Assembly (NCBI GenBank): GCA_025093985.1
Contig: JACAAK010000014.1
Coordinates: 1 to 64,000 of the forward strand
Direction of reading: 5' to 3'
DNA length: 64,000 bases
DNA from: Calvatia gigantea
Lineage: Eukaryota > Basidiomycota > Agaricomycetes > Agaricales > Lycoperdaceae
Below, one piece after another: positions 441 to 60,665 of this stretch. The notes beneath the pieces are model-generated. The model had not been told where the DNA came from, did no database searches, and saw nothing but the letters and a program-made list of their open reading frames with translations. Position numbers and translations under genes: made by a program. The number at the start of each line of letters is the position of its first letter. Position 1 is the first letter of the stretch.

Positions 441-1900
441 TTAAAGTCCTTCTTGAATCCTGAAGGACATGAACATGTCAACAAATATGGAGTATGCCTT
501 CTCCTCGGTCGGGCACTCAACCATAAACTGTTCCAAAGAATCAGCGGCTCTACTGGCAGTGACCCTGTTGCGAATCAGTATGGCCTCCCAAAATTCCTGA
601 TGGCTGAGCTTGACACTTACTTGCCGAGATAGACACCAGATTTCGGACCGCCCGGAACAATCCACCAAGTGTACAGGGCTGAAGAGTGAGGTGCACCGGA
701 GGCCTTGAGGGGGAACGGAACATTGACGGGGACCAACCTCTGGATACGTCCCCGCATGAAGAGATCAACAAACAGCTCATTGGCTTGGGCGAGACCTCCT
801 GGAGATTTGTACATCCAACTCTTGCCAATAGGACCGGCATTCCGCGTTGCAGTTGTCCTGTAATATATGTTCAATTATAAACATTGCAACAGCAACAACC
901 ACTTACTTTCCGAGGTAGACTCCTGGACTATTCCCAACGCCTACGACCCACCAACAGGCCTCATCATTCTTGGGACTTGGAACGTTCGAATTTGCGTTGT
1001 TTGCCATTTGTGTCCTCAAAGGTGACCCGACTAGCAGAGATTCAACAAGTGGGCGGGGCGCCAAGCCGCTCTGGGTGTCAACGAGCTGGTGGTTCGACGA
1101 GAGTTGACGATCAGGAGCCGATGGAGCTGGTTCCTGCGGGAAGAAGCATCTTTCCTTCTTTTGAGGGGTAGTTGAGGACGACATTTTGGACGACTCTACC
1201 CTGCGACGAGGGGTGGACGATGGGGCTGGAGGGAGGGGATGGGGAGCCTGTCGGGAGGTAGCGTGGGGCTGCGCTTCAGCAGAAATGGGTAGCAGTGGGG
1301 ATGCAGCGGCAGGAATTATCCTCGTATTCTGGGGGGTATTTGGTGGAACGGCGGGGGTGGACAAAGCCAGTGGATTCGAACGAACCTTTTTGCAAGGTGT
1401 CTGCGGTGGGGCTACGAAAAGCTGGTCGTTCCACTCAGGGGGGACCGGCCCGAGTAGGTTCTGGGCTTTGGCGTATTCATAGGCATGCGCGGCGTCCTCT
1501 TCAGAGTGGTAACCTCTGAACCGTGCATCAGGAATTTTGATGAGCGGCGCAACAGACGACCTTGTCAGATAGTCAGTGGAAATGACAAACAAACTAAAAG
1601 TCACGCCCACCATGAAGTAAACACGCCAGTTCTTTTACCGTGGAAAACAACGAACGCCGTCTTTTTGCAGCTGCAGACCAACTCAGTGGGCATGCTTACC
1701 CAACCATCGTAAGGATTCTGTCCCAGCTGCTCAGACTTGGTTGGGGTTGCAGGATCATAAGGGAGGGCTGGGGAACCAAGCGACAAGTTTCCCGAACCGA
1801 ACGTAAAATGGAAAGAATCAGCTTCAACCTCCAGGGAGTCAACCTCTTCAACCATCTGAGAAGGCGTAAGCATATAATCTGAAAAATCTTCAGAAAGCAT
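441..1900 (-). CDS. Triple RNase H1-N/viroplasmin-like domain protein
   Basis: The protein carries repeats of the small fold shared by the RNase H1 N-terminal domain and caulimovirus viroplasmin, which in RNase H1 binds duplex nucleic acid. Visible units are a first with AFVVFHGKRTGVF..W then DARFRGYHSEEDA, a second with WWVVGVGNSPGVYLG, and a third with TWWIVPGGPKSGVYLG followed by AYSIFVDMFMSF. Exon 1 (1611-1900) joins exon 2 (from 1560) over a 50-base intron that splits a Trp codon TG|G. Two further introns follow the two VYLGK ends (donors GTAAGT). No RNase H catalytic domain follows, so an RNA-binding or regulatory role is inference only. A Pro/Ser/Thr-rich linker joins unit 1 to unit 2. 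The start is uncertain: an ATG lies at 1900, but the frame stays open further upstream. It is a paralogue of the plus-strand gene at 6124. Confidence 0.75.
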
Positions 1901-3028
1901 AGAGTCTAAAAGGGGCGTCAGCGACTGTTCCTTTGCCCAAATTAGTAAACGCGCCTTGGTCCAGTGCCTCTACATTTGTGCCCTGAGGGTCGCCCTGAGA
2001 GCCTGTTCAACAGTAAGTTAAGCGACTAAGTGTGATCCGCAGGACCTGAATTACCAGAAGGGTCCAGGTCCGGTGACCCATTCCTGATTGTCATTGGACC
2101 CTTGTTCGAAAGCATGGCTGGCCTTATTCCGGATGAAATGAGTCCAGCTTCATGTCAGAGGCTGTGTGCGGGCACTCACAATCAGGGGGGAAAAAGGGGA
2201 AAGAAGGGGGAAAGAAAGAAAGAATGCTGGACGTAAAGTGCTCCTCCAAGCTGACTTTTTAACTCGTCGGGGTACACATAGGTGTAAACAACAACATGAG
2301 GCCGTTTCTGGCCAATTAGATCCACTTCCGCGTTTTTGGGGACTTCTCTTGAAGGAATTAGGTATGCATTTTTTTTATTGGTGCGCACCAGTGTTCGTCC
2401 CATTTCCCCATTGCATGGGTTACAGTACATCCGATATCTTCAATGCTGCCGTTATTTCATCAGCAGCAGACACTGACCAGACCGGAACAAGTAGATTTAC
2501 CCTGGGGAACCCTTCTGATGCGTTCAACTCCTGCGCAAATCCCACTGTGCCAAGAGGTTCACACAGGAGGTGGGTGCCAGCTTGAGGAGAGCCAGACAAG
2601 CAATCCCCGGAGCCTAAATGAGGTACAAGAAGCCTAAGTGCACCGTTCCTCAGTAGCGAACACATCGTTGGCAATATCTTACTGGATAATTTTTCTGTTC
2701 ATTGGAGAAATACATTCCAACTGCGACAACACTTTTGTCGCAGTCACCACTTTTACTCAATCCGCAGAGGACAAAGGGGGTCTCTGTTCTGCGCGGATAT
2801 GTATGTTGAATCGAGTTGGGCAATATACAGAGCATCCGTTGCCTGTATTTCAGCTGGAAACATGAAATCAGGCAAGGATTCCAAATATAAGCCGATCTTA
2901 CCATCTCCCAGGCACCTGAAAGGTTTGAAGCTAACCCGCCCTCAAGCATCGCGTGGCCTTGATGACATTTTAACTGCGCTCAGCAAATGTCAGCTGCGAA
3001 AGCTTCGGGCAGAGGGGAGAAGAAGAGA
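1901..3028. other. Intergenic, no supported gene
   Basis: Only short unlinked open frames occur here. None shows a recognisable domain or matches the paralogous locus. It contains a purine-rich stretch near 2180-2225 (GGGGAAAAAGGGG-like). The upstream part next to 1900 could contain a further 5' exon of the viroplasmin-like gene. Confidence 0.4.
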
Positions 3029-3115
3029 GCGACTCTTAGTCTGCTCTAAAGATAGCAAGAGCAACCCTTAGTCTGCTCTAAAGATAGCAAGAGCGACTCT
3101 CAGTCTACCCTCAAC
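3029..3115. repeat. 32-base tandem repeat, about 2.5 units
   Basis: Two 32-base units lie at 3029-3060 and 3061-3092. They differ only at positions 4-7 (GACT against ACCC) and share TTAGTCTGCTCTAAAGATAG. A third, partial and diverged unit starts at 3093. The unit includes an AGTCTGC element related to the GAC-N5-GTC motif found just downstream. Confidence 0.8.
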
Positions 3116-3284
3116 TCAAGGAAAAAGAGAGTGACGGCCAGTCTACTCTCCACCTCCTCCATGGATGACTACCAAGTCTATCCTGCAACTTGTAACAAGA
3201 AGAATGCGACCGCACTTACTTCTGGTCTTGGCAGTGACAGGCTGGATCAGATGGGAACGGGGAACAAGAAGAGAGGTATTTGTT

Positions 3285-3610
3285 TATTGTCAGACTTTCG
3301 AAACTATCGAAGGGCCAGCCAAACACGGGCTAGCCAAACATGGCCCATCAAATCAGTATTTGGCCCCTGGCGCATCCCCCCCCTTTTCCTACTCTCGTGA
3401 CCTCATCGCCAGACTTTCCGTCAGCGAGAGCACTCTTTTCTTCTCATCAGACTTGCAGTCGATGAGACCAGACTGCCAGACTTAGCGTCGGCACTGCTCT
3501 TTCACTCCCTGCACTACCTGACTTTCCTTAGCGAAAGGATCATTGTTGGACTTCAAGTCAGTGAGCATTATAAGCGAGCCTTATCATCGGCGACTTAAGT
3601 AGCTAGCTGA
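3285..3610. repeat. Cluster of AGACTT-NNN-GTC(A/G)GC motifs
   Basis: At least five related short motifs occur: CAGACTTTCCGTCAGCGAG near 3410, CAGACTTGCAGTCGATGAG near 3449, CAGACTTAGCGTCGGCACT near 3477, GACTTTCCTTAGCGAAAGG near 3520 and GACTTCAAGTCAGTGAG near 3548. The shared core is an interrupted palindrome, GAC-N5-GTC. The same motif is clustered at 13660-14690 in both orientations. Spacing is irregular, so it is not a CRISPR array. Confidence 0.6.
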
Positions 3611-4017
3611 TCCAATCCTGCCCGCAGTGGTAAGCAGATCTTAACGTGATGTTGCCAAGCCGATATTAACCCTCCCAGAACTTCCAGGTTGAAAGTTTTC
3701 TTGGTGGAGCATAGATTAGTGGCCGACAAGTCTAGCGTGGAGATCCTGGTGTTTTGGACTGCCCCAGGCGATGAATACAGATCTAAAATAGCTTCTTACT
3801 GCATGCTTGCCCCCCCTACTCGTCCGGGAGGAATGGAGTGCAGCTTCAATCCCAGGTTCGCCCAGCGTTTTTTCGTAGGCCAAAAATATGGACTGATCAG
3901 AGCTGAAGCTTACTTCGTCTTAGACAAATGGTGGCTCTCTAGTCCCTAGCCTGTGTATCTAAAGGACAAAGGACACTTAGCAGTATACTTCAATCGCATC
4001 TTTTACTTCTGACCCGC

Positions 4018-4370
4018 GGGAAGGACTACAACTCGTCCAGGGCGAAAGATCTGGTTTTGCACAATTTAATCGCAAATGAAAGCATGGCTGCAGTTTTCTG
4101 GGCGGGTGTTAGGATTTGTCGGGGACAACTGGTGGCTGGACCGTTTAGGTCCTGTGCCAATCGCCCTGGGCAACTGGATCCGGGGTCCCTTCTCATCCTG
4201 CCCGCCGAGCCGACCACGTCCGGAGGTAGCAGGTTCAGAACCAGATCCGAAACAAACATTTCGTCGTGGACAAATGTTGTCCTGAGTTCAGAGACACCCA
4301 ATTTGGGGCAGCGCCAATATGGCACCTTTCGTCAAGGGCGAATATTGCGAATTTAGGCCACCTAAAGCAC
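4018..4370. repeat. Diverged dispersed repeat, copy 2
   Basis: This is the partner of 1-370, in direct orientation and about 4.0 kb away. It begins GGGAAGGACTACAACTCGTCCA and keeps the ATGG...TTTTC and CGGGGACAACTGGTGG blocks. It includes TTCGTCGTGGACAAATG near 4259 and ends after CAATTTGGGGCAGCG. The two copies bracket the minus-strand viroplasmin-like gene. That could suggest terminal repeats, but no target-site duplication or polymerase gene is visible. Confidence 0.5.
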
Positions 4371-6067
4371 AACCTGTGTTCTCGACACCCCCGATCTACT
4401 CAAATGTTGGGCGGACGAACGGTGGTTGATCTTCCGGTGTTACACTACCACTTGCTTATTGCAGACAAACCAGGGGGGGTCGTTTAGTGCTGAACACCCA
4501 CACATTCGTCCGCGACGAATTGTGAATGCTGAGTTGATCAAGGAGGGATTGGTTCGTGGAGGAGGGGAGGTTAGATGGTGTGGATGGGTTAATTTGTAGT
4601 CGTATCCCGGGCCGACTCGGGCTAGAGCAATCCCAGCAGTGATGCTCAGTCCCTGGCTTTAGTTTGCCTGGAAATTTATTCTTAAGGTCGAACCATCACT
4701 GCGTCAGGTTGCCAACTAATTGTAGGATGCGGGTGTTAGGTGGGACATGGCGACTACCAGTAGTTCCACCCCTCAGTTCAAAAAGCTTGAGCTCGAGTTC
4801 GCTAATTTTGCAAGGCACACTCGAGTCGTAGACTCACCAGCTCGGCAGAACATACCAAATATCATTGTCAACTTATCCCTCGCAATCTCGCTACCAGCAT
4901 CCATCACTGCAAAATCTGCAACCGACAGCTCAACGTGACATACCCCTTCCTTGTAATCTTGATTACATTCCCAATGATTTGTCATGACTTATCAGAGGCC
5001 CAATGAATCGCCAATCAACTAATCAGCTTTCGTATGTCACGCCAAGTTTATTCTGCGACGCATCCGCCCGACAAAGGTCTTGAGAATTCCAAAGACAGTT
5101 TGCGGAGTGAGTACGTGGGGCACGTGATGGTTCCTCAGCCCAGACTGCGACCCGCGAGTACGCGGGTGAGTACTATAATCATTCAAACATGAAAGAAGGA
5201 AAGAATCATCGAGTCACGACCCCTCTGGCCACGGAAATTCATCCAGGACGAACGCATTTCGCCCGGACTTCACCTGTGTATATGTGATTTGTTAACCCCA
5301 GGGACTTTGGGATGAATACGACCACATAGGAGATCCACTGCGCTAGTTGTTGCGAGACGCATACCGTTCGTCCCAGACGAAGAGGCTGGATGCTAGAAGC
5401 TCACCCATATCGAGGCGAGTTGTGGAGGAGCTCGCCGGGGTGCGCAGGTGCTTGTCCGAATGGATGACTTAGCTCAGATGTACATGGTTCATCTCGGACA
5501 AGACTCTCCACTCGACTCAGAAAACATCACATTTCAATGAAAAGTGGCTCAAGGGCGCCTGATGGGCCAACCAAACATGGCCTGTTTAGACCTCGGTTCC
5601 GTGGGTGGCTTATTTGATGGGACCCTTGCCGCCTATCAGGACCATCACTGATTAAATGTAATCTATAAATGTGAGTGATGGAGATATTGGAAGTGTCATA
5701 GCCCCAGAATTGGCTTGCCAATTGGCACAAGAATATGTTTTCAGTCCCGTTCAAACAAGCGACAACCCTCAGAAACGCGGAAAAGACTCTGATTGGTGGC
5801 GAGCGACCTCATGTTCTTGTTTGCTCTTATGTATAGATCGAGAAGGTATTTAAAAAGCTCAGCCGCGTACTTTACGTCCAACTTTTTTTTCCTTCCGCCC
5901 CAAATTTTACCTGACTGTAAGTAGCAACAAAATTGCTCTTGTCGCGTCATTCAGGTTTAACATTCGTCGAGTAGGTTCACAATGCGCATCTATCAAAGCC
6001 CGAAGACTCTCAAGCACACGCCACCTAAATCGGGTCACCGCAGCAGGGAGGGAGGAACCACGCGTAT
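4371..6067. other. Intergenic with scattered palindromes
   Basis: No supported gene. It contains further TTCGTCC..GGACGAA-type palindromes (near 4506, 5245 and 5369). The end of the stretch may hold the promoter or a non-coding first exon of the 6124 gene. A plausible 50-base intron, GTGAGT..CCACAG, runs from 6069 to 6118, directly before the first in-frame ATG. Confidence 0.4.
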
Positions 6068-19311: not shown

Positions 19312-19535
19312 TAGTCTGTTCTCAGCCTGTCTCTAGTCTATTCTCTGGTCTATTCCCTGTCCATTCCCTACCTATTCCCAGTCTATTCCCTGCCTATCCT
19401 CTGTCTGTCCCCTGTTCCATCCCCTGTCCATCCCCTGTTCCATCCCCTGCCTGTCCCCTGGTCCATCCCCTGTCTATCCCCTGTCTATCCCCTGTCCATC
19501 CCCTGTCCATGCCCTGCCCATCCCCTAGTCAAAAA
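19312..19535. repeat. Degenerate TCCCCTGTCCA low-complexity repeat
   Basis: Roughly 20 imperfect units of the type (C/T)(C/A)TCCCCTGTC(C/T), about 10-12 bases each, are strongly C/T-biased on the plus strand. This looks like a decayed minisatellite. It ends just before the duplicated element at 19575. Confidence 0.8.
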
Positions 19536-19574: not shown

Positions 19575-20110
19575 TAACCGGCCTTGTCTCGTGATGCGCA
19601 GGCTGATAGATGGACTAAGGGATTGTCTGAGCTGGACTGTTGCGTAAATAACCTGCCACGGTATGTACCCCGCCTTCAGTTGTCAAGCTGATGACATCGT
19701 TAGGTACTTGATACGTTCAAATTATTATTCTGGTAATGTTCGTATTTAAGTGCGTGGGCGCTTAATGGGCGCCCCGCATTTGGGCGCTACGCGGGCGCTT
19801 AAGTACAAGTTTTCCTTACTTTTACATTTCCTGACGATAACTTAAGCGCCCACAAGCGCTAAGGTTTTGGGCGCTATATTAGCGCTCGTTGACATTTGTC
19901 AACTGTTCCATGGATCGAGTTAATTATACTCATCCCCAAGTATAGCGCGATCGTACGCGTTCTATTGGTTTGGTAGGTACTGATGGATAATCAGAGCGCC
20001 TGATGAGTCTGTCATAAGACAAAACAGGTGGCTGGGGTAGCTCCCCAGCCTGTTGCGCTGTCTCCTCCATCGACAACTCAACGGTTTTTAGGATTTCCTC
20101 CTCCGTCCGG
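19575..20110 (+). mobile_element. Duplicated non-coding element with hammerhead-like motif, copy 1
   Basis: About 535 bases, nearly the same as 27735-28263. Identity begins at AACCGGCCTTGTCTCGTGAT and ends near AACGGTTTTTAGGA. Contents in order: a conserved 5' block to about 19710; an AT-rich variable stretch; a GGGCGC/AGCGC-rich palindromic region (19755-19885); two small hairpins (19917-19931 and 19946-19959); and a hammerhead-like fold (19981-20072). There is no open reading frame, so it would be non-autonomous. Calling it mobile is inference from its duplication and from the partial extra copies at 28279-28545 and 30500-30665. Confidence 0.6.
19981..20072 (+). ncRNA. Type I hammerhead-ribozyme-like motif, copy 1
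   Basis: Core CUGAUGA is at 20000-20006. Stem II is GUCU (20007-20010) with AGAC (20017-20020), loop GUCAUA. Then AAAA (20021-20024), where the consensus is GAAA. Stem III is ACAGG/CCUGU and, past a UGG bulge, CUGGGG/CCCCAG with loop UAGCU. The predicted cleavage site follows U20054 (a GUU triplet). Stem I is AGCGC (19995-19999) with GCGCU (20055-20059); past an internal loop it continues as GAUGGA (19982-19987) with UCCAUC (20066-20071) plus a U-G pair. All expected core bases are present except G12, which is A. An internal loop in stem I facing the stem II loop is the arrangement that stabilises natural hammerheads. Self-cleavage is unproven. Confidence 0.6.
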
Positions 20111-21808: not shown

Positions 21809-22159
21809 AGTTGGTAGCGTTGACGGTTAGTCTGTGACGGTGCACATAGGACAATGGCCGCGTAGTCTGGGCGTAGCCCTAGGGTAGGCCTTGCTCATTT
21901 AGACCCTAAAGTGTGGGTGGGACCCGTCATGTAACCTGTAGGAAGACATGCAGACGACGAGAGTGGTGTCATGTGTGACTGAACGAAACCTGATGATGTT
22001 CCCTCCGCCCAGTTAGAAACTGAGAGTAGTCATCCTGCGGGCCTAACTATCCATCGCGTAAGCTGGAAAAGAACCTGAAGGCCTGATGTTTGGAATCAGC
22101 GTCATCGACGACGACATCATCTTTCCCACGGCATCAATTACTCGTCAACGTCAACATCC

Positions 22160-23239
22160 ATGGTCGTCCTACGTGGCCTCCAATGGATCTACAACAAACT
22201 CCTCGCAAAGGCTCAAAAGTGTTTTCTGGCTGTTCTCGCCGCAGGCCCAGTACCAAGCCACATTGCATTCGTGATGGATGGGAACCGGCGATTTGCACGG
22301 ACACGCAACAGGAAGGTGCAGCAGGGCCATGTTGCTGGATTTGATGCCCTCCATCGAGTACGCGCTCATAATTTTTTATTTGGCGCTGTAAGACTGACCG
22401 CTCCCCGTTTAGATGCTGGAGGTGTGCCTCCAGATGAATATTCACTGCGTTTCGGCGTACGCATTTTCAATTGAGAATTTCAAACGGTCTCCCGAGGAAG
22501 TGGACGCACTCATGACCCTCGCCGAGGAAAAACTTCTGGACCTCTGTAATAAAGGGTATGTTGGCTCCATCTTATTTCTTGAGTGAATTGTAAACTCATA
22601 GTCGTGCTAATAGGGACCTTCTGGACAAGTATGGTGTCCGCCTAAATATCATTGGCAGGATAGAACTCTTGCCTAAAAATGTGCAGAATGCAGCACGGAA
22701 AGCGGAACGACTAACGCGACATAATAATAGGTATGCTCACCCGCGCACTTTGGCATCGCCCTTATTGAATATCTATGGCAGAGCGATTCTCAATTTGTGT
22801 ATGCCCTATGCATCTCGCGACGAGATCACTGCCGCTGTGGAAGAGTGCGTGCAAATTGGATTAAGAGACAACGTTGATCCGGACACGTACGTTTCCGCGT
22901 TCTCCATCTCTCCTGCTCACAAACAATGGTTCCAATAGGTATTTTACCAAGGAAGAAATCGAAAAACATCTCATGACGACTGTGAGAGGCAGCCCTCCAC
23001 TCGACATCCTCATAAGAACGAGTGGTGTCAAACGCCTCAGTGACTTCCTCCTCTGGCAGGTCCGTTCACCCTTTGTGCTTACGATTATATTTGGTACTTC
23101 GCTGACGCCCCGGTAGTGTTGTGAGAATACACAGATCCAGTTCACTTCGACATATTGGCCAAACTTCGGGCTTTGGGACTTTATACCTATCATCCTGGAC
23201 TATCAACGCAAAATATGGAGCAAACGGATATCTGCATAG
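22160..23239 (+). CDS. Cis-prenyltransferase, dehydrodolichyl diphosphate synthase (Rer2/DHDDS type)
   Basis: The enzyme extends farnesyl diphosphate with isopentenyl diphosphate in cis configuration to make the dolichol precursor at the ER. Six exons: 22160-22357, 22413-22555, 22614-22730, 22782-22886, 22939-23059 and 23117-23239. They are joined by 51-58-base introns with consistent phases and give about 268 residues. Family motifs are [14 protein letters not shown] with the catalytic Asp, [64 protein letters not shown] and the Trp-Pro near the C-terminus. The first residues ([21 protein letters not shown]) are amphipathic, as usual for membrane-associated members. No C-terminal RxG motif is present, which in the family fits the Rer2 type. 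Part of this gene is duplicated at 29128-30490. Confidence 0.92.
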
Positions 23240-27685: not shown

Positions 27686-27734
27686 TAGGCTCCAGAGTAG
27701 CTAACTCCTGTAAAGCCTAATAATGCTAGTGGAA

Positions 27735-28263
27735 CCGGCCTTGTCTCGTGATGCGCAGGCTGATAGATGGACTAAGGGATTGTCTGAGCTGGACTGTTGC
27801 GTAAATAACCTGCCACGGTATGTACCCCGCCCTCAGTTGTCAAGCTGATGACATTGTCAGTTACTTGATACGTTAATTTTCACTTTTCGTGAAAACATGT
27901 ATTCATGTGCGTGGGCGCTTAATGGGCGCCCCGCACTTGGGCGCTACGCGGGCGCTTAAGTAAAAGTTTTCCTTACCTCTGTATTTCCTGACGATAATTT
28001 AAGCGCCCACAAGCGCTTGAATTTTTGGGCACTTCGTTAGCGCTCGTTGACATTTGTCAACTGTTCCATGGATCGAGTTAATTATACTCATCCCCAAGTA
28101 TAGCGCGATCGTACGCGTTTCATTGGTTTGGTAGGTACTGATGGATAATCAGAGCGCCTGATGAGTCTGTCATAAGACAAAACAGGTGGTTGGGGTAGCT
28201 CCCCAACCTGTTGCGCTGTCTCCTCCATCGGACAACTCAACGGTTTTTTAGGAATCACCTCCT
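27735..28263 (+). mobile_element. Duplicated non-coding element with hammerhead-like motif, copy 2
   Basis: Second copy of 19575-20110, in the same orientation, 8158 bases downstream at the hammerhead core. The two copies bracket the RPA1-like, cis-prenyltransferase, KRE6-like and coiled-coil genes. Differences concentrate in the AT-rich middle (about 27875-27905) and in stem positions, where several are compensating. No coding capacity. Confidence 0.6.
28139..28230 (+). ncRNA. Type I hammerhead-ribozyme-like motif, copy 2
   Basis: Same fold as copy 1, with the CUGAUGA core at 28158-28164. One stem III pair differs by a compensating double change: C-G in copy 1 (20032/20048) is U-A here (28190/28206). 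Base 12 is again A. Predicted cleavage is after 28212. Confidence 0.6.
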
Positions 28264-28278
28264 CCCCCTAACCCACTG

Positions 28279-28545
28279 TTCCATGGATCGAGCTATTTAC
28301 GCTCGTCCCCAATAATAACGCGAACCCTCGCGTTCTATTGGTTTGGTAGGTACTGATGGATAATCAGAGCGCCTGATGAGTCTGTCATAAGACAAAACAG
28401 GTGGCTGGGGTAGCTCCCCAGCCTGTTGCGCTGTCTCCTCCATCAGACAACTCAACGGTTTTTAGGATTTCCTGCTCCCCAGCCTGTTGCGCTGTCTCCT
28501 CCATCGGACAACTCAACGGTTTTTAGGAATCACCTCCTCCTCTCA
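28279..28545 (+). repeat. Tandem partial copies of the element's 3' end
   Basis: It begins again at TGTTCCATGGATCGAG and carries the upstream hairpins and a full hammerhead-like motif. Then comes a further 3' fragment (CTCCCCAGCCTGTTGCGCTG through GTTTTTAGGAATCACC, about 28474-28535). This gives a local tandem arrangement with a 215-base period relative to copy 2. Confidence 0.75.
28354..28445 (+). ncRNA. Type I hammerhead-ribozyme-like motif, copy 3
   Basis: Core CUGAUGA is at 28373-28379, with all stems as in copy 1. The outermost stem I pair is U-A (28354/28445) where copies 1 and 2 have U-G. The upstream sequence is much more diverged than the motif itself, yet the two small upstream hairpins are kept. 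Base 12 is A. Predicted cleavage is after 28427, exactly 215 bases from the site in copy 2. Confidence 0.6.
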
Positions 28546-29127: not shown

Positions 29128-30490
29128 CAATGGCCGCGTAGTCTGGGCGTAGCCCTAGGGTAGGCCTTGCTCATTTAGACCCTAAAGTGTGGGTGGACCC
29201 GTCATTAACCGTGAGACTGGACGACAGAGTGGTTATCTGTCCAACGAAACGTGATCCGTTCCCCAGTTAGAAACGAAGCATCCTCGGGCACTCGATCGCG
29301 TAAGCTGGAAAAGAACCTGAAGGCCTGATGTTTGGAATCAGCGTCATCGACGACGACATCATCTTTCCCACGGCATCAATTACTCGTCAACGTCAACATC
29401 CATGGTCGTCCTACGTGGCCTCCAATGGATCTACAACAAACTCCTCGCAAAGGCTCAAAAGTGTTTTCTGGCTGTTCTCGCCGCAGGCCCAGTACCAAGC
29501 CACATTGCATTCGTGATGGATGGGAACCGGCGATTTGCACGGACACGCAACAGGAAGGTGCAGCAGGGCCATGTTGCTGGATTTGATGCCCTCCATCGAG
29601 TACGCGCTCATAATTTTTTATTTGGCGCTGTAAGACTGACCGCTCCCCGTTTAGATGCTGGAGGTGTGCCTCCAGATGAATATTCACTGCGTTTCGGCGT
29701 ACGCATTTTCAATTGAGAATTTCAAACGGTCTCCCGAGGAAGTGGACGCACTCATGACCCTCGCCGAGGAAAAACTTCTGGACCTCTGTAATAAAGGGTA
29801 TGTTGGCTCCATCTTATTTCTTGAGTGAATTGTAAACTCATAGTCGTGCTAATAGGGACCTTCTGGACAAGTATGGTGTCCGCCTAAATATCATGGCAGG
29901 ATAGAACTTTGCCTAGAATGTGAGAATGACCGGGAAAGCGAACGACTACGACATATAAAGGTATCTCACCCGCGACTTTGGATCGCCCTTTGAATACTAT
30001 GGCAAGCGATCAAATGTGTATCCCTATGCATCTAGCGACGAGATCATGCCGCTTGGAAGATGTGAAATTGCATTAAGAGACACAGTATCCGGACATGTTT
30101 CCGGTTTCCTTCTCCCCAAAACAATGGTCCATAGGTATTTTAGCAAGGAAGAAATCGAAAAACACTCATGAATGAGGGCCCGCCCCCACTCGAATTCTAA
30201 AACGAGGTGTCAAAGCCTCAGTGACTTCCTCTTGAGGGTCCGACCTTTTCTTAGATTATATTGGACGGACCCCCGGTAGTGTTGTGGAAGACGTCCGTTC
30301 ACTTAATTGGAAACTTCGGGCTTTGGGCTTTTATCTCAACCTGGATTAACGGAAAAATGAGCAAACGGATCATCGCAAGGAAACCCGTCTCCCGTGTCCA
30401 CTACGAGCAAGGCTCTTGGACAGTTCAGTTTTCGATTTCACAATATTCCTTTCAGGGAACGAAGGAGTGTTCGTCAGGACTTGAGCCGCA
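29128..30490 (+). pseudogene. Partial, indel-riddled duplicate of the cis-prenyltransferase gene
   Basis: Matches 21850-23360. The 5' flank up to about 29200 is nearly identical, 29200-29300 has many one-base losses, about 29305-29890 (ATG at 29402, exons 1-2 and the start of exon 3) is identical, and from about 29893 on there are frequent single-base losses that destroy exons 3-6. Encoded motifs survive only in the first part ([13 protein letters not shown]). Such alternation is odd for natural decay and suggests uncorrected sequence, but a real duplicate cannot be excluded. Confidence 0.8.
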
Positions 30491-30499
30491 GTTCTCGAA

Positions 30500-31330
30500 A
30501 CTTTGTGAGTCTGTCAATAAGACAAACAGGTGTAGGGGTAGCTCCCCAGCCTGTTGCGCTGTCTCCTCCATCAGACAACTCAACGGTTTTTTAGGATTCC
30601 TGCTCCCCAGCCTGTTTGCGCTGTCTCCTCCATCGGACAACTCAACGGTTTTTTTAGGAATCACCTCCTCCTCTCATATAGCTCACCAACCACTGCTTCA
30701 ATCTCTTTGCTACTTTACTCAACTGACTACTTATATTAGGGCTACACACTTGCCAAATTTCAGGGAAATTTGAATACCTTTTTGGTTACCCCCCTTAATT
30801 AGCTTTCTTGGCCTTGAAGACTACTGACAGTGTGGAGCAAGCAAACAAGGTACCCCAGTGGTACCCAGCTTGGGTACTTTCTAAAATGATGTCCCTTATT
30901 ACTCACCAAGATTACTGAACGTTCGGAAGGTGGCATTTACGATCGCGTGGCGATTTGGTGTCGAGACGAGAGAGAGAAGAGAGGAAGCAAGAAATAGATT
31001 AGAGAAATAACTAGAGACAGTGACTTCGAGGTGAAACTTGGCTAATTCGTAGCTACCTCACTACAACAAAGTATACAGGTTTTTATAGAGGAAAATGGTG
31101 GGCTGTGTGCCCGAATTACAAAGAGTAGAATGTAAATTTTAGAGAGAGAACAAAGAAAAAGATACTAGCGGGGATGAAAATGGGCCGGAAACTCATTCTA
31201 TGAGATTCTAAATTATGAGGAATGTAAAAAAAAAGCTTAAAAGTGAATTGAAAAGTGGTCCGTAGGTTTTTTTTAGAGTCGGAAATGAGAAGTACGGGCA
31301 GGTGAGGTGGAGTTCGGAGGTTGGAGCTTC
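30500..31330. repeat. Noisy further copy of element 3' end plus flanking repeat
   Basis: A truncated hammerhead-like 3' half is present (GTGAGTCTGTC, AAGACAAACAGG, GGGGTAGCTCCCC; about 30506-30565), lacking the stem I 5' strand and the first core bases. A second TGTTGCGCTGTCTCC fragment (about 30612) and the duplicate of 28546-29127 follow. Single-base differences from the other copies are common. Confidence 0.6.
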
Positions 31331-56293: not shown

Positions 56294-58152
56294 TTACAAG
56301 GGGCGTTGACGGCCCTCTATAAATCCAAAATCACCATGATATCGAATGGAGGCCTTTTTCAGTTCACCCATTAAAATTAAACCACGGACATGGTCCGTCT
56401 GCGCAGCCATAACGATCTCGTGCAAATTCAACTCCTTGAGTACATTATCCCCTCGACTGAGAAAACACGTGTGCACCAACATCACCAAGTACACCGCCAT
56501 GGTCGCCGCTGGAATCGTCGCGTTCACCCACCACCTCCTTTTCGCTTATCCCCTCCACCACGGAGTGGAGATCCTGTGTACCTTCACCACTTCTCGAGGC
56601 CGTTTGCATGATACCATCCAACATGCTGATCGCAGTCTCTTTCCAGAGATCCTGGGTGAGTGCGCAAAACGTCTCTGTATCATTGCTTGACGGCACGGGC
56701 CCAAGTACGCCTCCCCTACACCTTATACGCCAGAATCCTCCCCCTATCCCACCCCACCAACTTAGAATGACCTTGCTCACCGAGTCAGCAACACACATAT
56801 CTGGGTCATCGATGTTGCATCCCGTCGTTCGAGGCCGACTTGACACCAGATAATCCACTCCCTCTTTTCTCGGTTCTTCCGGCTCCATCGCCAACCAATG
56901 TGTGCATAATGCGATATTCATCTTCCCGTCTGAGGTTGTAGTTGCGTTGGGAATCAAGCCAACCGTGTTGCTGACCCACAAATATTGTGTAACAGCTGTA
57001 CCGACTCTTGTTGACGCAACATACACTGCCATTTCTGGATGGGCAATGTATTCTGTTCCATTAATCCAGATTATATAGTTGATGAGCCCTCGGCCTACAG
57101 GGTCCTCAACCGTATAATTTCCCCAGCCTTTGCACTCGAACCATCCTGTAATCATTGCCCCCCCCGGAACAGCATTACTCGCCACTACACTTCTAGAATC
57201 TGGCGTTACCAACGAGCCCCGAAGCGCTCCGTCATGATTTATATTCCTTTCAAGGGCCCACGAAATCACTTTAGAGGTCGCCTCCAGTTGCCCAGCATTA
57301 TTGAGGTGCCCTTGAATGGGATTGGAATCCGGCATGTCCACAGTCGCATTATACGAAAATGCCAGGGCAAGCGTCGTGGCCTCCTTCTCGATCGACAATC
57401 CCGTCACCTAACGAAATTGCCGTCCCGATCCCAAGAAGCATGAAAACAAACACAGAAAGTAGGCGGTTGTTCTTCCTGAAAAGAAGAAAAACTGCGTCAT
57501 TGAGACTCCCCCGGATCGCTCCGAGCGTAAGATCAAGGTTTTTGAATGTGTTCCCCTGATGCATGAGGATGAACCATGCCTGGTACGAACTGAGCCTGAG
57601 AATCCCGACCGAGGAGATCATGACGCCTGCTTTGAGCCAATATGACATGAAGGTTTGGAGCAATTGGAGAGCATTGCTCGTGTTGGGGTCGTAGGATTTT
57701 GGACAAGCAGCGGAAGGAGGACATGTGTGGATCCGGGGAAGGACAACTGTGTCGGTTAATGCGATACCCAAAAGCATCACCAGGATGCCTACAAGAACCC
57801 AGGCAGCTGTTTTACGGGCGAGGTAGTGCAGGACCTCCCACCTCAGCCTACTTGAACGAGTGAGCTGCCCGTCGTGGAGGCTCAGAGATGTCTGAGTGGG
57901 AGAGGTCGTGGATGAGATTTCATGGTCGGCAGGTGGAGTTACATGAGGTTCAGGTGGAGTGGCTAATGGGGGGGAATGTGCCGAGTTTCGAGGTGGAGGG
58001 AGGGAGGGGAAGATGGTGCTACGGGTCTCCGGCTCTGCTATATTCAGAGGCCCATTGGTCGAAGGGTTGACCTTCAGCGGTGTTGTTATTTTCTGGACCT
58101 GACCGACTATGATTTCCTGCCGCTCAGTATCTTGGGGTGACTCCTCACTCAT
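56294..58152 (-). pseudogene. Unrecognised multi-pass membrane protein, copy A (two +1 frameshifts)
   Basis: One of three related copies. A Pro/Ser/Thr-rich N-terminus of about 95 residues precedes membrane segments KTAAWVLVGILVMLLGIALTD, AGVMISSVGILRLSSYQ and LLSVFVFMLLGIGTAISL. A large, probably lumenal or extracellular region with N-glycosylation sequons and several Cys follows (GWFECKGWGNYT, GLIPNATTTSDGKMN, CRGGVLGPVP), then a last membrane segment and a short tail (NVLKELNLHEIVMAAQTDHV). Relative to copies B and C there is one extra base at about 57409 and another in an A-run near 56555, so the frame is broken twice. The start used is the ATG at 58152. The family is not recognised. Confidence 0.65.
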
Positions 58153-60665
58153 CGCCTTGATACCAAACACTGGCACTGAGAGCCGTTAGAATTTTTCATA
58201 AAGAATATTCCTACAGCAGACCTGGATAGATAGTTGACTCTCGGAGATAGATGTAAAAGGAGAAGGACGGTGAGCTGATGAGTTAACGAAGATGTGAACC
58301 TTCAAGCTGGTGCCTGCCATAATATCTAATATCCCTCATCAACTTCCAGTCAACTGGTTGGCAAGGACACCAAGATTAGAAGAAGAGAAGCGAGTCCTAT
58401 TTCCTGTGATTGTTGGTCCCGGGTGTCATACGCCACAGCAGGCTTAAACTCTAGGGCGTTGAAAGTTCAATCACTAAATGTCAAGGTCATCAAGTTGTCC
58501 AAACCGTTGCATCTGTGCCATTGCCAATAACTGTGACTCACGAACCCACATCCATACAGACTGAATCAAGTTGATCCAGCGCCCGAGTAGAAAAAAAAAA
58601 CCAATGTGTTATGTCCACATTTCCCGCATTTTGGGTGGGCTGGTACTGTCAGGTAAGTCAGGTCGATACACCTCAACTCCCTTTGTCCCTTTCTCCCAGT
58701 GTATCACTGATGAAAGGTATTCTTAGAGTGGATGTGAATCATTAGTTCCACACACGGGCGGTCATCACGCGCACTGGTCCTAATTATGTGTGATCTATCC
58801 CGAAATATGTGAAAACCCTTCCAGACCTCACCGTCACTACAAGCAAAGATAGGAGCCTTTCTTGTTGCGAGGTTTGTAGGAGATTCGGAGATGTGATTGA
58901 TACATCACCATGACCTCGCCATTTGCTTGGTTGTTCACAACGAAATTTAAGTTTAACCGTGTATTTTGAATGGGACGCAAATCTCCTTGGATGATCGACC
59001 GGAACCCTTCTTTCCACAGTATATTAAGTGGAGTGAAAAGCTTGATATCAGCCATAATGTCAACCAGAGCTTGAGGGCGGGTTGAAGCTTGATTGTAGGA
59101 CATTTTGGGGGCTTAGTAGAAGTTAGATGGTTATACAATTATCTTTGCTTGTAGTGACGGTGAGGTCTGGAAGGGTTTTCACATATTTCGGGATAGATCA
59201 CACATAATTAGGACCAGTGCGCGTGATGACCGCCCGTGTGTGGAACTAATGATTCACATCCACTCTAAGAATACCTTTCATCAGTGATACACTGGGAGAA
59301 AGGGACAAAGGGAGTTGAGGTGTATCGACCTGACTTACCTGACAGTACCAGCCCACCCAAAATGCGGGAAATGTGGACATAACACATTGGTTTTTTTTTC
59401 TACTCGGGCGCTGGATCAACTTGATTCAGTCTGTATGGATGTGGGTTCGTGAGTCACAGTTATTGGCAATGGCACAGATGCAACGGTTTGGACAACTTGA
59501 TGACCCTTGTCATTTAGTGATTGAACTTTCAACGCCCTAGAGTTTAAGCCTGCTGTGGCGTATGACACCCAGGACCAACAATCACAGGAAATAGGACTCG
59601 CTTCTCTTCTTCCAATCTTGGTGTCCTTGCCAACCAGTTGACTGGAAGTTGATGAGGGATATTAGATATTATGGCAGGCACCAGCTTGAAGGTTCACATC
59701 TTCGTTGACTCATCAGCTCACCGTCCTTCTCCTTTTACATCTATCTCCGAGAGTCAACTATCTATCCAGGTCTGCTGTAGGAATATTCTTTATGAAAATT
59801 TCTAACGACTCTCAGTGCCAGTGTTTGGTATCAAGGCGATGAGTGAGGAGTCACCCCAAGATACTGAGCGGCAGGAAATCATAGTCGGTCAGGTCCAGAA
59901 AATAACGACACCGCTGAAGGTCAACCCTTCGACCGATGGGCCTCTGAATATAGCAGAGCCGGAGACACGTAACACCACCACCCCCTCCCTCCCTCCACCT
60001 CGAAACTCGGTATATTCCCCCCCATTAGCCACTCCACCTGAACCTCATGTAACTCCACCTGCCGACCATGAAATCTCATCCACGACCTCTCCCACTCAGA
60101 CATCTCTGAGCCTCCACGACGGGCAGCTCACTCGTTCAAGTAGGCTGAGGTGGGAGGTCCTGCACTACCTCGCCCGTAAAACAGCTGCCTGGGTTCTTGT
60201 AGGCATCCTGGTGATGCTTTTGGGTATCGCGTTAACCGACACAGTTGTCCTTCCCCGGATCCACACATGTCCTCCTTCCGCTGCTTGTCCAAAATCCTAC
60301 GACCCCAACACGAGCAATGCTCTCCAATTGCTCCAAACCTTCATGTCATATTGGCTCAAAGCAGGCGTCATGATCTCCTCGGTCGGGATTCTCAGGCTCA
60401 GTTCGTACCAGGCATGGTTCATCCTCATGCATCAGGGGAACACATTCAAAAACCTTGATCTTACGCTCGGAGCGATCCGGGGGAGTCTCAATGACGCAGT
60501 TTTTCTTCTTTTCAGGAAGAACAACCGCCTACTTTCTGTGTTTGTTTTCATGCTTCTTGGGATCGGGACGGCAATTTCGTTGGTGACGGGATTGTCGATC
60601 GAGAAGGAGGCCACGACGCTTGCCCTGGCATTTTCGTATAATGCGACTGTGGACATGCCGGATTC
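57325..60665. repeat. Giant inverted repeat with 288-base spacer
   Basis: The left arm 57325-58851 and right arm 59140-60665 are reverse complements. From the centre out to about 57411/60580 the positions sum constantly to 117991 and no indel is needed; beyond an extra base at 57409 the sum is 117990. Mismatches are few, concentrated near 57990-58025/59965-60000. Identity stops abruptly at 57325/60665, beyond which the arms continue only as diverged paralogues. The spacer is 58852-59139. The arms contain the promoters and N-terminal halves of copies A and B. Confidence 0.9.

Follow-up and report, generated by a model that had tools for sequence, protein, structure and literature searches.

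The stretch of DNA analysed here (the window, 64 kb in length) is the first 64 kb at the left end of contig C6, in a genome of 46 Mb and 77 contigs. It contains several copies of a repeat unit, R, all on the plus strand, whose positions we give relative to the copy observed at the end of contig C45 (L041), used as the reference for anatomy. There, R occupies 1-546 (about 546 nt) from AATGGTGAGT to CACCTCCTCC, with C3 of the hammerhead fold at 439 and the cut after 493. Copy A of the window (19576..20104) covers reference 13-546, is 93% identical to the C45 contig-end copy and is solo, without an ORF. Copy B (27728..28265) covers reference 8-546 and is separated by a telomere-repeat remnant, CCCTAACCC (28266..28274), from copy C (28275..28467), which is 5′-truncated and begins at reference 341. 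An R fragment at 28474..28544, starting from reference 479, holds the remaining 3′ side of the hammerhead along with the C-rich tail, two degenerate R fragments lie at 30506..30675, and a broken hammerhead relic at 30485-30572 scored 35.7 bits with the family model. No telomere array was found in the window when we searched for CCCTAACCCTAA with up to 1 mismatch.

A C-rich minisatellite with a period of 11 and about 17 copies (19336-19526) lies just upstream of copy A. At 28413-28528 and again at 30541-30659, a unit of 61-62 nt that joins the 3′ portion of the hammerhead to the tail of R is repeated in tandem (1.9 copies). Two stretches carrying the start of a cis-prenyltransferase gene, 22050-22474 and 29292-29716, are each located downstream of an R unit. 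The first gave a PF01255 match, their 131-residue reading frames are identical, as are the 300 nt compared, and the pair looks like a subtelomeric duplication. Further along, we noticed a large inverted repeat at 57410-60581 (arms 57410-58486 and 59505-60581, 1077 nt, 99% complementary), with related repeats between about 56321 and 63991.

In copy A, the plus strand at 19982..20071 displays a type I hammerhead fold with 26 of 26 pairs intact, and every element of the full architecture claimed in the preliminary description was found base by base. The core consists of C3 at 20000 (CUGAUGA), followed by A13, A14 and A15.1 and by U16.1-U17, and position 20021 is an A where G12 is expected; G occupies position 12 in 39/52 complete copies in the genome. 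Stem II is GUCU/AGAC with the loop GUCAUA, stem III has 5 + 6 bp with a UGG bulge and a UAGCU loop, inner stem I has 5 bp and outer stem I has 6 bp, or 7 if the U-G pair 19981/20072 is counted. As read from the bases, stem I has an internal loop and stem II its GUCAUA loop, the two partners of a possible loop-loop contact. The hammerhead numbering places the predicted cleavage site after U17 (20054..20055). The family model R1, for which the copy A variant was among the source sequences, gave copy A 120.8 bits. The same fold lies at 28140..28229 in copy B, with a C-G pair of stem III replaced by U-A, and at 28355..28444 in copy C. The strict core with G12 is absent from copies A, B and C, all of which carry A12.

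Using a relaxed descriptor of the hammerhead, in which G12 or A12 was permitted, we obtained three matches in the window, with C3 at 20000, 28158 and 28373. The minus strand of the window gave no match, and neither did 60 simulated sequences of 64 kb, each searched on a single strand and generated by a first-order Markov model; the chance occurrence of the full hammerhead core is negligible. The Rfam hammerhead models, proposed earlier as a check, gave a mixed answer: 15 kb of the window returned no match at E≤10, and a search with 131 nt alone resulted in a weak type III match (17.3 bits, E 0.19, gathering score 48.5) that pairs different bases in another register. Even the canonical C45 copy reached at best 21.0 bits against the gathering score of 48.5, again with the type III model in another register. 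Rfam was dropped as a detector, being too insensitive to the hammerhead variant of R. The descriptor in turn missed a diverged hammerhead in L070, in which the closing pair of stem II is G-U, and the family model R1 caught it.

Used as a DNA query, R recovered at least 48 matches in the genome, and a hammerhead-core pattern with up to 2 mismatches was found at 64 places, 47 with G12 and 17 with A12. All 64 core matches are oriented alike, on the plus strand near left contig ends and on the minus strand near right ends. The earlier claim that the motif sits inside a duplicated fungal element is thus borne out by a family of 64 core matches, residing in the terminal repeats of an element with one ORF. 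We classified 52 copies as complete, meaning that all 90 positions align (shorter copies were dropped); 30 are plus-strand copies in left halves of contigs and 22 minus-strand copies in right halves. Their median distance from the contig end is 5.6 kb, the maximum is 92.5 kb, and 45 of them lie within 20 kb. The conserved type I core (C3 U4 G5 A6 N7 G8 A9 / G12 A13 A14, A15.1-U16.1, H17) is intact in 38/52, and core together with all 26 pairs is kept in 31/52, so the conservation of the stems in further genomic copies, set beforehand as a test, was indeed observed. The core changes among the complete copies include G12A in 13 and an altered G5 in 6. The A for G12 mismatch pointed out in the preliminary description is true of copy A but is no trait of the family, and we dropped it as such, A12 being a minority state (17/64 core matches; 13/52 complete copies).

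The element carrying these repeats is about 5 kb long, with one ORF and R on both sides. In the reference, the ORF extends from 583 to 4407 and the 3′UTR ends with CTAATACGTAGGAACCCCCTAACCCCT. The full end of the 3′UTR is followed by AACCTCCCCTAAC and another R at 15 of 15 distinct places (with one change in one copy), and on this ground we define the unit as R-ORF-3′UTR-telomere-like tract-R, in which direct tandem pseudo-LTR repeats surround the ORF. In L054, the 3′UTR is broken off at 4876 and joined instead to R at 246. A copy on C4 has a 1605-nt insert in the 3′UTR (L040 696-2300), bounded by the inverted repeats CAGTAAGGGACAAAACCG and CGGTTTTGTCCCTTACTG with a TA duplication, which looks like a DNA transposon.

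Of 63 R units or fragments, 5 continue into the ORF, one in full and four truncated or deleted near the 5′ side. Among the other 58, 46 end at 535-555, 16 of them followed by telomere repeats and 30 without, and 24 start at position 1, 15 behind a 3′UTR and nine not. In the interval that includes the cut (493/494), reference 485-500, none of the 63 units or fragments has a terminus, and therefore the genomic copies carry no record of cleaved RNA. The copies show a subtelomeric place, a fixed orientation and telomere repeats at junctions; the exceptions are three RT matches of old element copies on C3, which lie on the opposite strand. The old copies on C3 at L070 2669-2754 and L072 1483-1572, about 63 kb and about 100 kb inside the right contig end, are on the strand opposite to the orientation rule and retain a hammerhead-like fold with a GAAA loop in stem III. 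L069, which contains a 63% identical RT stretch, gave no hammerhead by descriptor or family model; one lies just upstream in L072. Beside the old copy, L072 2312-3000 is an unrelated dispersed repeat with many genome copies, and a 3-kb search with L072 returned mainly this repeat.

The ORF product is predicted to adopt a telomerase-like reverse transcriptase fold (residues 1-539 and 1151-1274 lie outside the model), and the ten best rows of VIA-align were all telomerase. A Pfam scan of the element itself left the RT undetected. The same database gave no GIY-YIG match in the element (E≤0.1), though it also missed the element's RT, and none in 20 aligned proteins (E≤1); the ORF contains no YIG-like triplet. 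A PDB sequence search with the single element protein resulted in nothing, and one with the family profile in three weak matches, two of low complexity and one an RT at E 0.11. Agaricus bisporus proteins are among the nearest relatives, with 44-51% identity over residues 620-1180. For one other ORF of the window, the closest protein matches reach 71% identity, and among the best 120 listed those with Agaricomycetes names have at most 44%.

Within R, nucleotide diversity is 0.035 in the hammerhead vs 0.087 in the rest. Variation is lower still in the first 150 nt of R, so that the hammerhead is not the sole constrained part. The young family displays a single pair changed on both sides (stem III C-G to U-A, as in copy B), and its covariation was no better than in shuffles. 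More information came from three diverged copies, at C3 2226 kb, C3 2189 kb and C12 4143 kb. Both C3 copies have GAAA instead of UAGCU as the stem III loop and keep G12; the C12 copy has another stem III loop and A12. We combined them with two window variants, one family copy and the broken window relic into a set of seven distinct rows. In this small set, the alignment of which was fitted to the structure model, 7 hammerhead pairs changed on both sides vs 2.3 in shuffles (0/500 reaching it), four in outer stem I, two in inner stem I and one in stem III, some of the changes being at CpG sites, where decay on two strands can mimic compensation.

The hammerhead is not the only fold that fits these rows. 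It pairs 92.2% of cells with a covariation score of 0.201, its weakest helix being inner stem I (82.4% paired), and an alternative fold, formed by an 8-bp hairpin (GGCUGGGG/CCCCAGCC) and CCUG/CAGG across the core, pairs 93.0% with a score of 0.210 and has 5 both-sided pairs, which also beats shuffles. The evidence leans to the hammerhead because its core is complete, and not by covariation alone. In nearest-neighbour folding, the minimum-free-energy structure of copy A is this other junction, at -39.7 vs -34.0 kcal/mol for the hammerhead. For the three variants found most often, the alternative is ahead by 6.0-6.7 kcal/mol (6.7 for the commonest); the difference amounts to 13.5 for one variant and to 9.6 and 13.9 for two of the diverged copies. 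As a control, 500 random hammerheads of the same layout lost the topology in 230 cases, in 155 of them by at least 6.7 kcal/mol. Random hammerheads thus lose their topology as well, and the energy preference therefore weighs little against the fold or its function. It would allow for a resting fold that is opened by a protein.

We consider it likely, with a probability of roughly 0.83, that R is the terminal repeat (pseudo-LTR) of an endonuclease-deficient, telomere-attached Penelope-like retroelement (PLE) and contains a genuine type I hammerhead. This reading is based on the R-ORF-3′UTR-tract-R anatomy, the predicted telomerase-like RT, the orientation at contig ends, the telomere junctions and the conservation of the fold. 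Judging from the anatomy, the 3′ end of the element RNA would consist of the folded hammerhead and, behind it, a pyrimidine-rich tail, which in the reference reads CACCTCCTCC. The tail could anneal to the G-rich telomere overhang, which would prime reverse transcription; the orientation and telomere junctions fit such priming by a telomere 3′ overhang on a C-rich RNA tail. The cDNA would then run through the ORF or stop in the internal telomere-like tract (CCCCTAACCTCCCCTAAC). A stop in CCCCTAACCTCCCCTAAC would leave a solo R headed by a telomere seed that telomerase could extend, and a built-in seed of this kind would account for the nine R units that lack a 3′UTR and start exactly at the tract. 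Intact copies can probably self-cleave after U17, and the purpose of this cleavage, if it has one, may be to separate the read-through transcripts from head-to-tail arrays into single units.

Against the PLE reading with a genuine hammerhead we counted the energetic preference for the alternative fold, the lack of R ends near the cut (0/63), the 30 of 46 R ends without telomere repeats, the covariation result in the young family, the small size of the diverged set and the fact that the alternative fold also beats shuffles in it, the strands of the three RT matches on C3, the quiet start of R, the window without a telomere array and the failure of Pfam to detect the RT. A rival reading is that the structure is shaped like a hammerhead but is non-catalytic, a 3′ RNA structure that binds the RT and presents the C-rich tail to the overhang, with cleavage incidental or absent. 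Such a role would agree with the absence of copies that begin or end at the cut site and with the 6/13 A12 copies that keep all pairs. Hammerhead-dead mutants of a lizard PLE are reported to be unaffected in insertion in vitro, with unprocessed RNA as the main substrate (PMC11167929), and for rotifer Terminons it has been suggested that the ribozyme fold makes the neighbouring telomere-complementary stretch accessible (PMC6431247). However, binding would not obviously demand a core kept in 38/52 copies, or G12 in two of the three diverged copies, and we see this role as possible but rather unlikely.

More tentatively, R may be a self-contained telomere-to-telomere module, in which the C-rich tail primes on the chromosome end and the built-in tract seeds a new telomere, so that element and solo R rebuild ends, and in which the alternative fold would hold the hammerhead inactive in the copied RNA until the element protein frees it. 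In vitro, the ribozyme of the lizard PLE reportedly cut only with protein added and was unneeded for insertion (PMC11167929). We regard the module in this full form as unlikely.

The doubtful case of a circular intermediate has to be mentioned too. If both R hammerheads cleaved and the unit were ligated to circular RNA, with the RT starting at the tail and going round more than once, this would account for R on both sides, for the differing 5′ ends of the first R and for the lack of copy ends at the cut site, and plant retrozymes are reported to spread via circular RNAs from double self-cleavage (PMC6155905). However, transcription of head-to-tail arrays with internal initiation explains the same anatomy and needs no circles (PMC11167929).

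Very unlikely, in our view, is that the alternative fold is the real structure and the hammerhead coincidental, even though the former has the lowest computed free energy in the commonest variants and pairs slightly more cells in the diverged set, where inner stem I of the hammerhead is the weakest helix. It leaves the full hammerhead core, negligible as a chance occurrence, unaccounted for. The two folds have outer stem I, stem II and distal stem III in common, and where they differ, two both-sided pairs fall in the inner stem I of the hammerhead and none in the alternative's own pairs; its energetic advantage is matched by the 155 random hammerheads of the control.

The A12 copies mostly reflect decay. 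Their loss of CpG is 0.191 vs 0.073 in the others, 2.6 times higher (Mann-Whitney p 0.0013), and their other divergence is equal (0.042 vs 0.041, p 0.50); they lie farther from contig ends (median 15.1 kb vs 4.2 kb, p 0.02), and all three p values are rough as the copies are related. Copy A has only 1/35 other CpG sites changed, and its A12 may thus stem from one isolated mutation or have been inherited. In an A12 copy on C7 (412802), 1/32 other CpG sites changed. Because of A12, the window hammerheads should be catalytically dead or nearly so, relics without useful cleavage. The low or lost activity anticipated from the G12 change is in line with the full-length hammerhead of satellite tobacco ringspot, in which G12A is reported to slow cleavage about a million-fold (PMC2553840). 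That A12 is instead a functional variant with another general base is highly improbable. The few other CpG changes in copy A and the C7 copy and the fully paired six of 13 would favour it, but the CpG loss of the group at equal other divergence, the greater distance from contig ends and the million-fold loss of rate argue against it.

Earlier publications already describe hammerheads in PLE repeats and, in rotifer Terminons, beside tails complementary to telomeres. Coprina is a type of endonuclease-deficient PLE in basidiomycete fungi, and our element, on the reading favoured here, can be likened to it by description. Cervera and de la Pena (2014) reportedly found that the hammerheads encoded by PLEs of fungi are stable in monomeric form. 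Fungi are reported to have only endonuclease-deficient PLEs (PMC3846280), and a link of PLEs to telomeres has been reported in Agaricus bisporus (PMC7473861). In the literature surveyed we found no description of a hammerhead in a fungal PLE, the likeliest sources lying beyond this survey.

The Terminons/Athena of bdelloid rotifers, telomere-associated endonuclease-deficient PLEs, resemble the fungal element in the PLE-type RT, the head-to-tail arrays, the 5′ truncation by telomere repeats and a hammerhead close to the 3′ end, behind which lies a sequence complementary to the telomere overhang, and priming by the overhang on the RNA tail beside the hammerhead has been proposed for them (PMC6431247). 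Set apart by description, Terminons reach 40 kb and carry accessory ORFs (PMC6431247), whereas the fungal element is compact, with about 5 kb and one ORF. Their hammerheads are described as minimal (PMC7761336), unlike the fungal one with its long stem III and outer stem I.

With canonical Penelope/Poseidon elements, our family shares the hammerhead in flanking repeats and the tandem pLTR-ORF-pLTR arrangement; in those elements RT initiation is reported to occur inside the RNA and not at its 3′ end, and they encode a GIY-YIG endonuclease, unlike the endonuclease-deficient reading of the fungal element (PMC11167929). Their minimal type I hammerheads are usually without stem III (PMC6155905), whereas stem III of the fungal hammerhead is long. 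The interspersed repeats of Yarrowia lipolytica, reported in 2011 as containing hammerheads among the first in fungi, are similar by description in that the hammerheads belong to repeated fungal elements, but the portion of that report available to us states no link to telomeres or an RT, unlike the putative fungal PLE here (PMC3088659).

According to one review, what hammerheads do in Penelope-like elements and in Terminons is a mystery (PMC7761336). The family described here is a compact test case, with more than 50 closely related natural copies, of which the natural A12 copies are built-in negative controls, with a stem III whose length should favour folding as a monomer and with ends of R that can be read against the cut site. 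Compared with the systems above, what is new is that the case is fungal and clear, has a long stem III and an exact anatomy, and comes with natural G12A relics, and the family shows in detail by what route a retroelement of fungi may become attached to telomeres.
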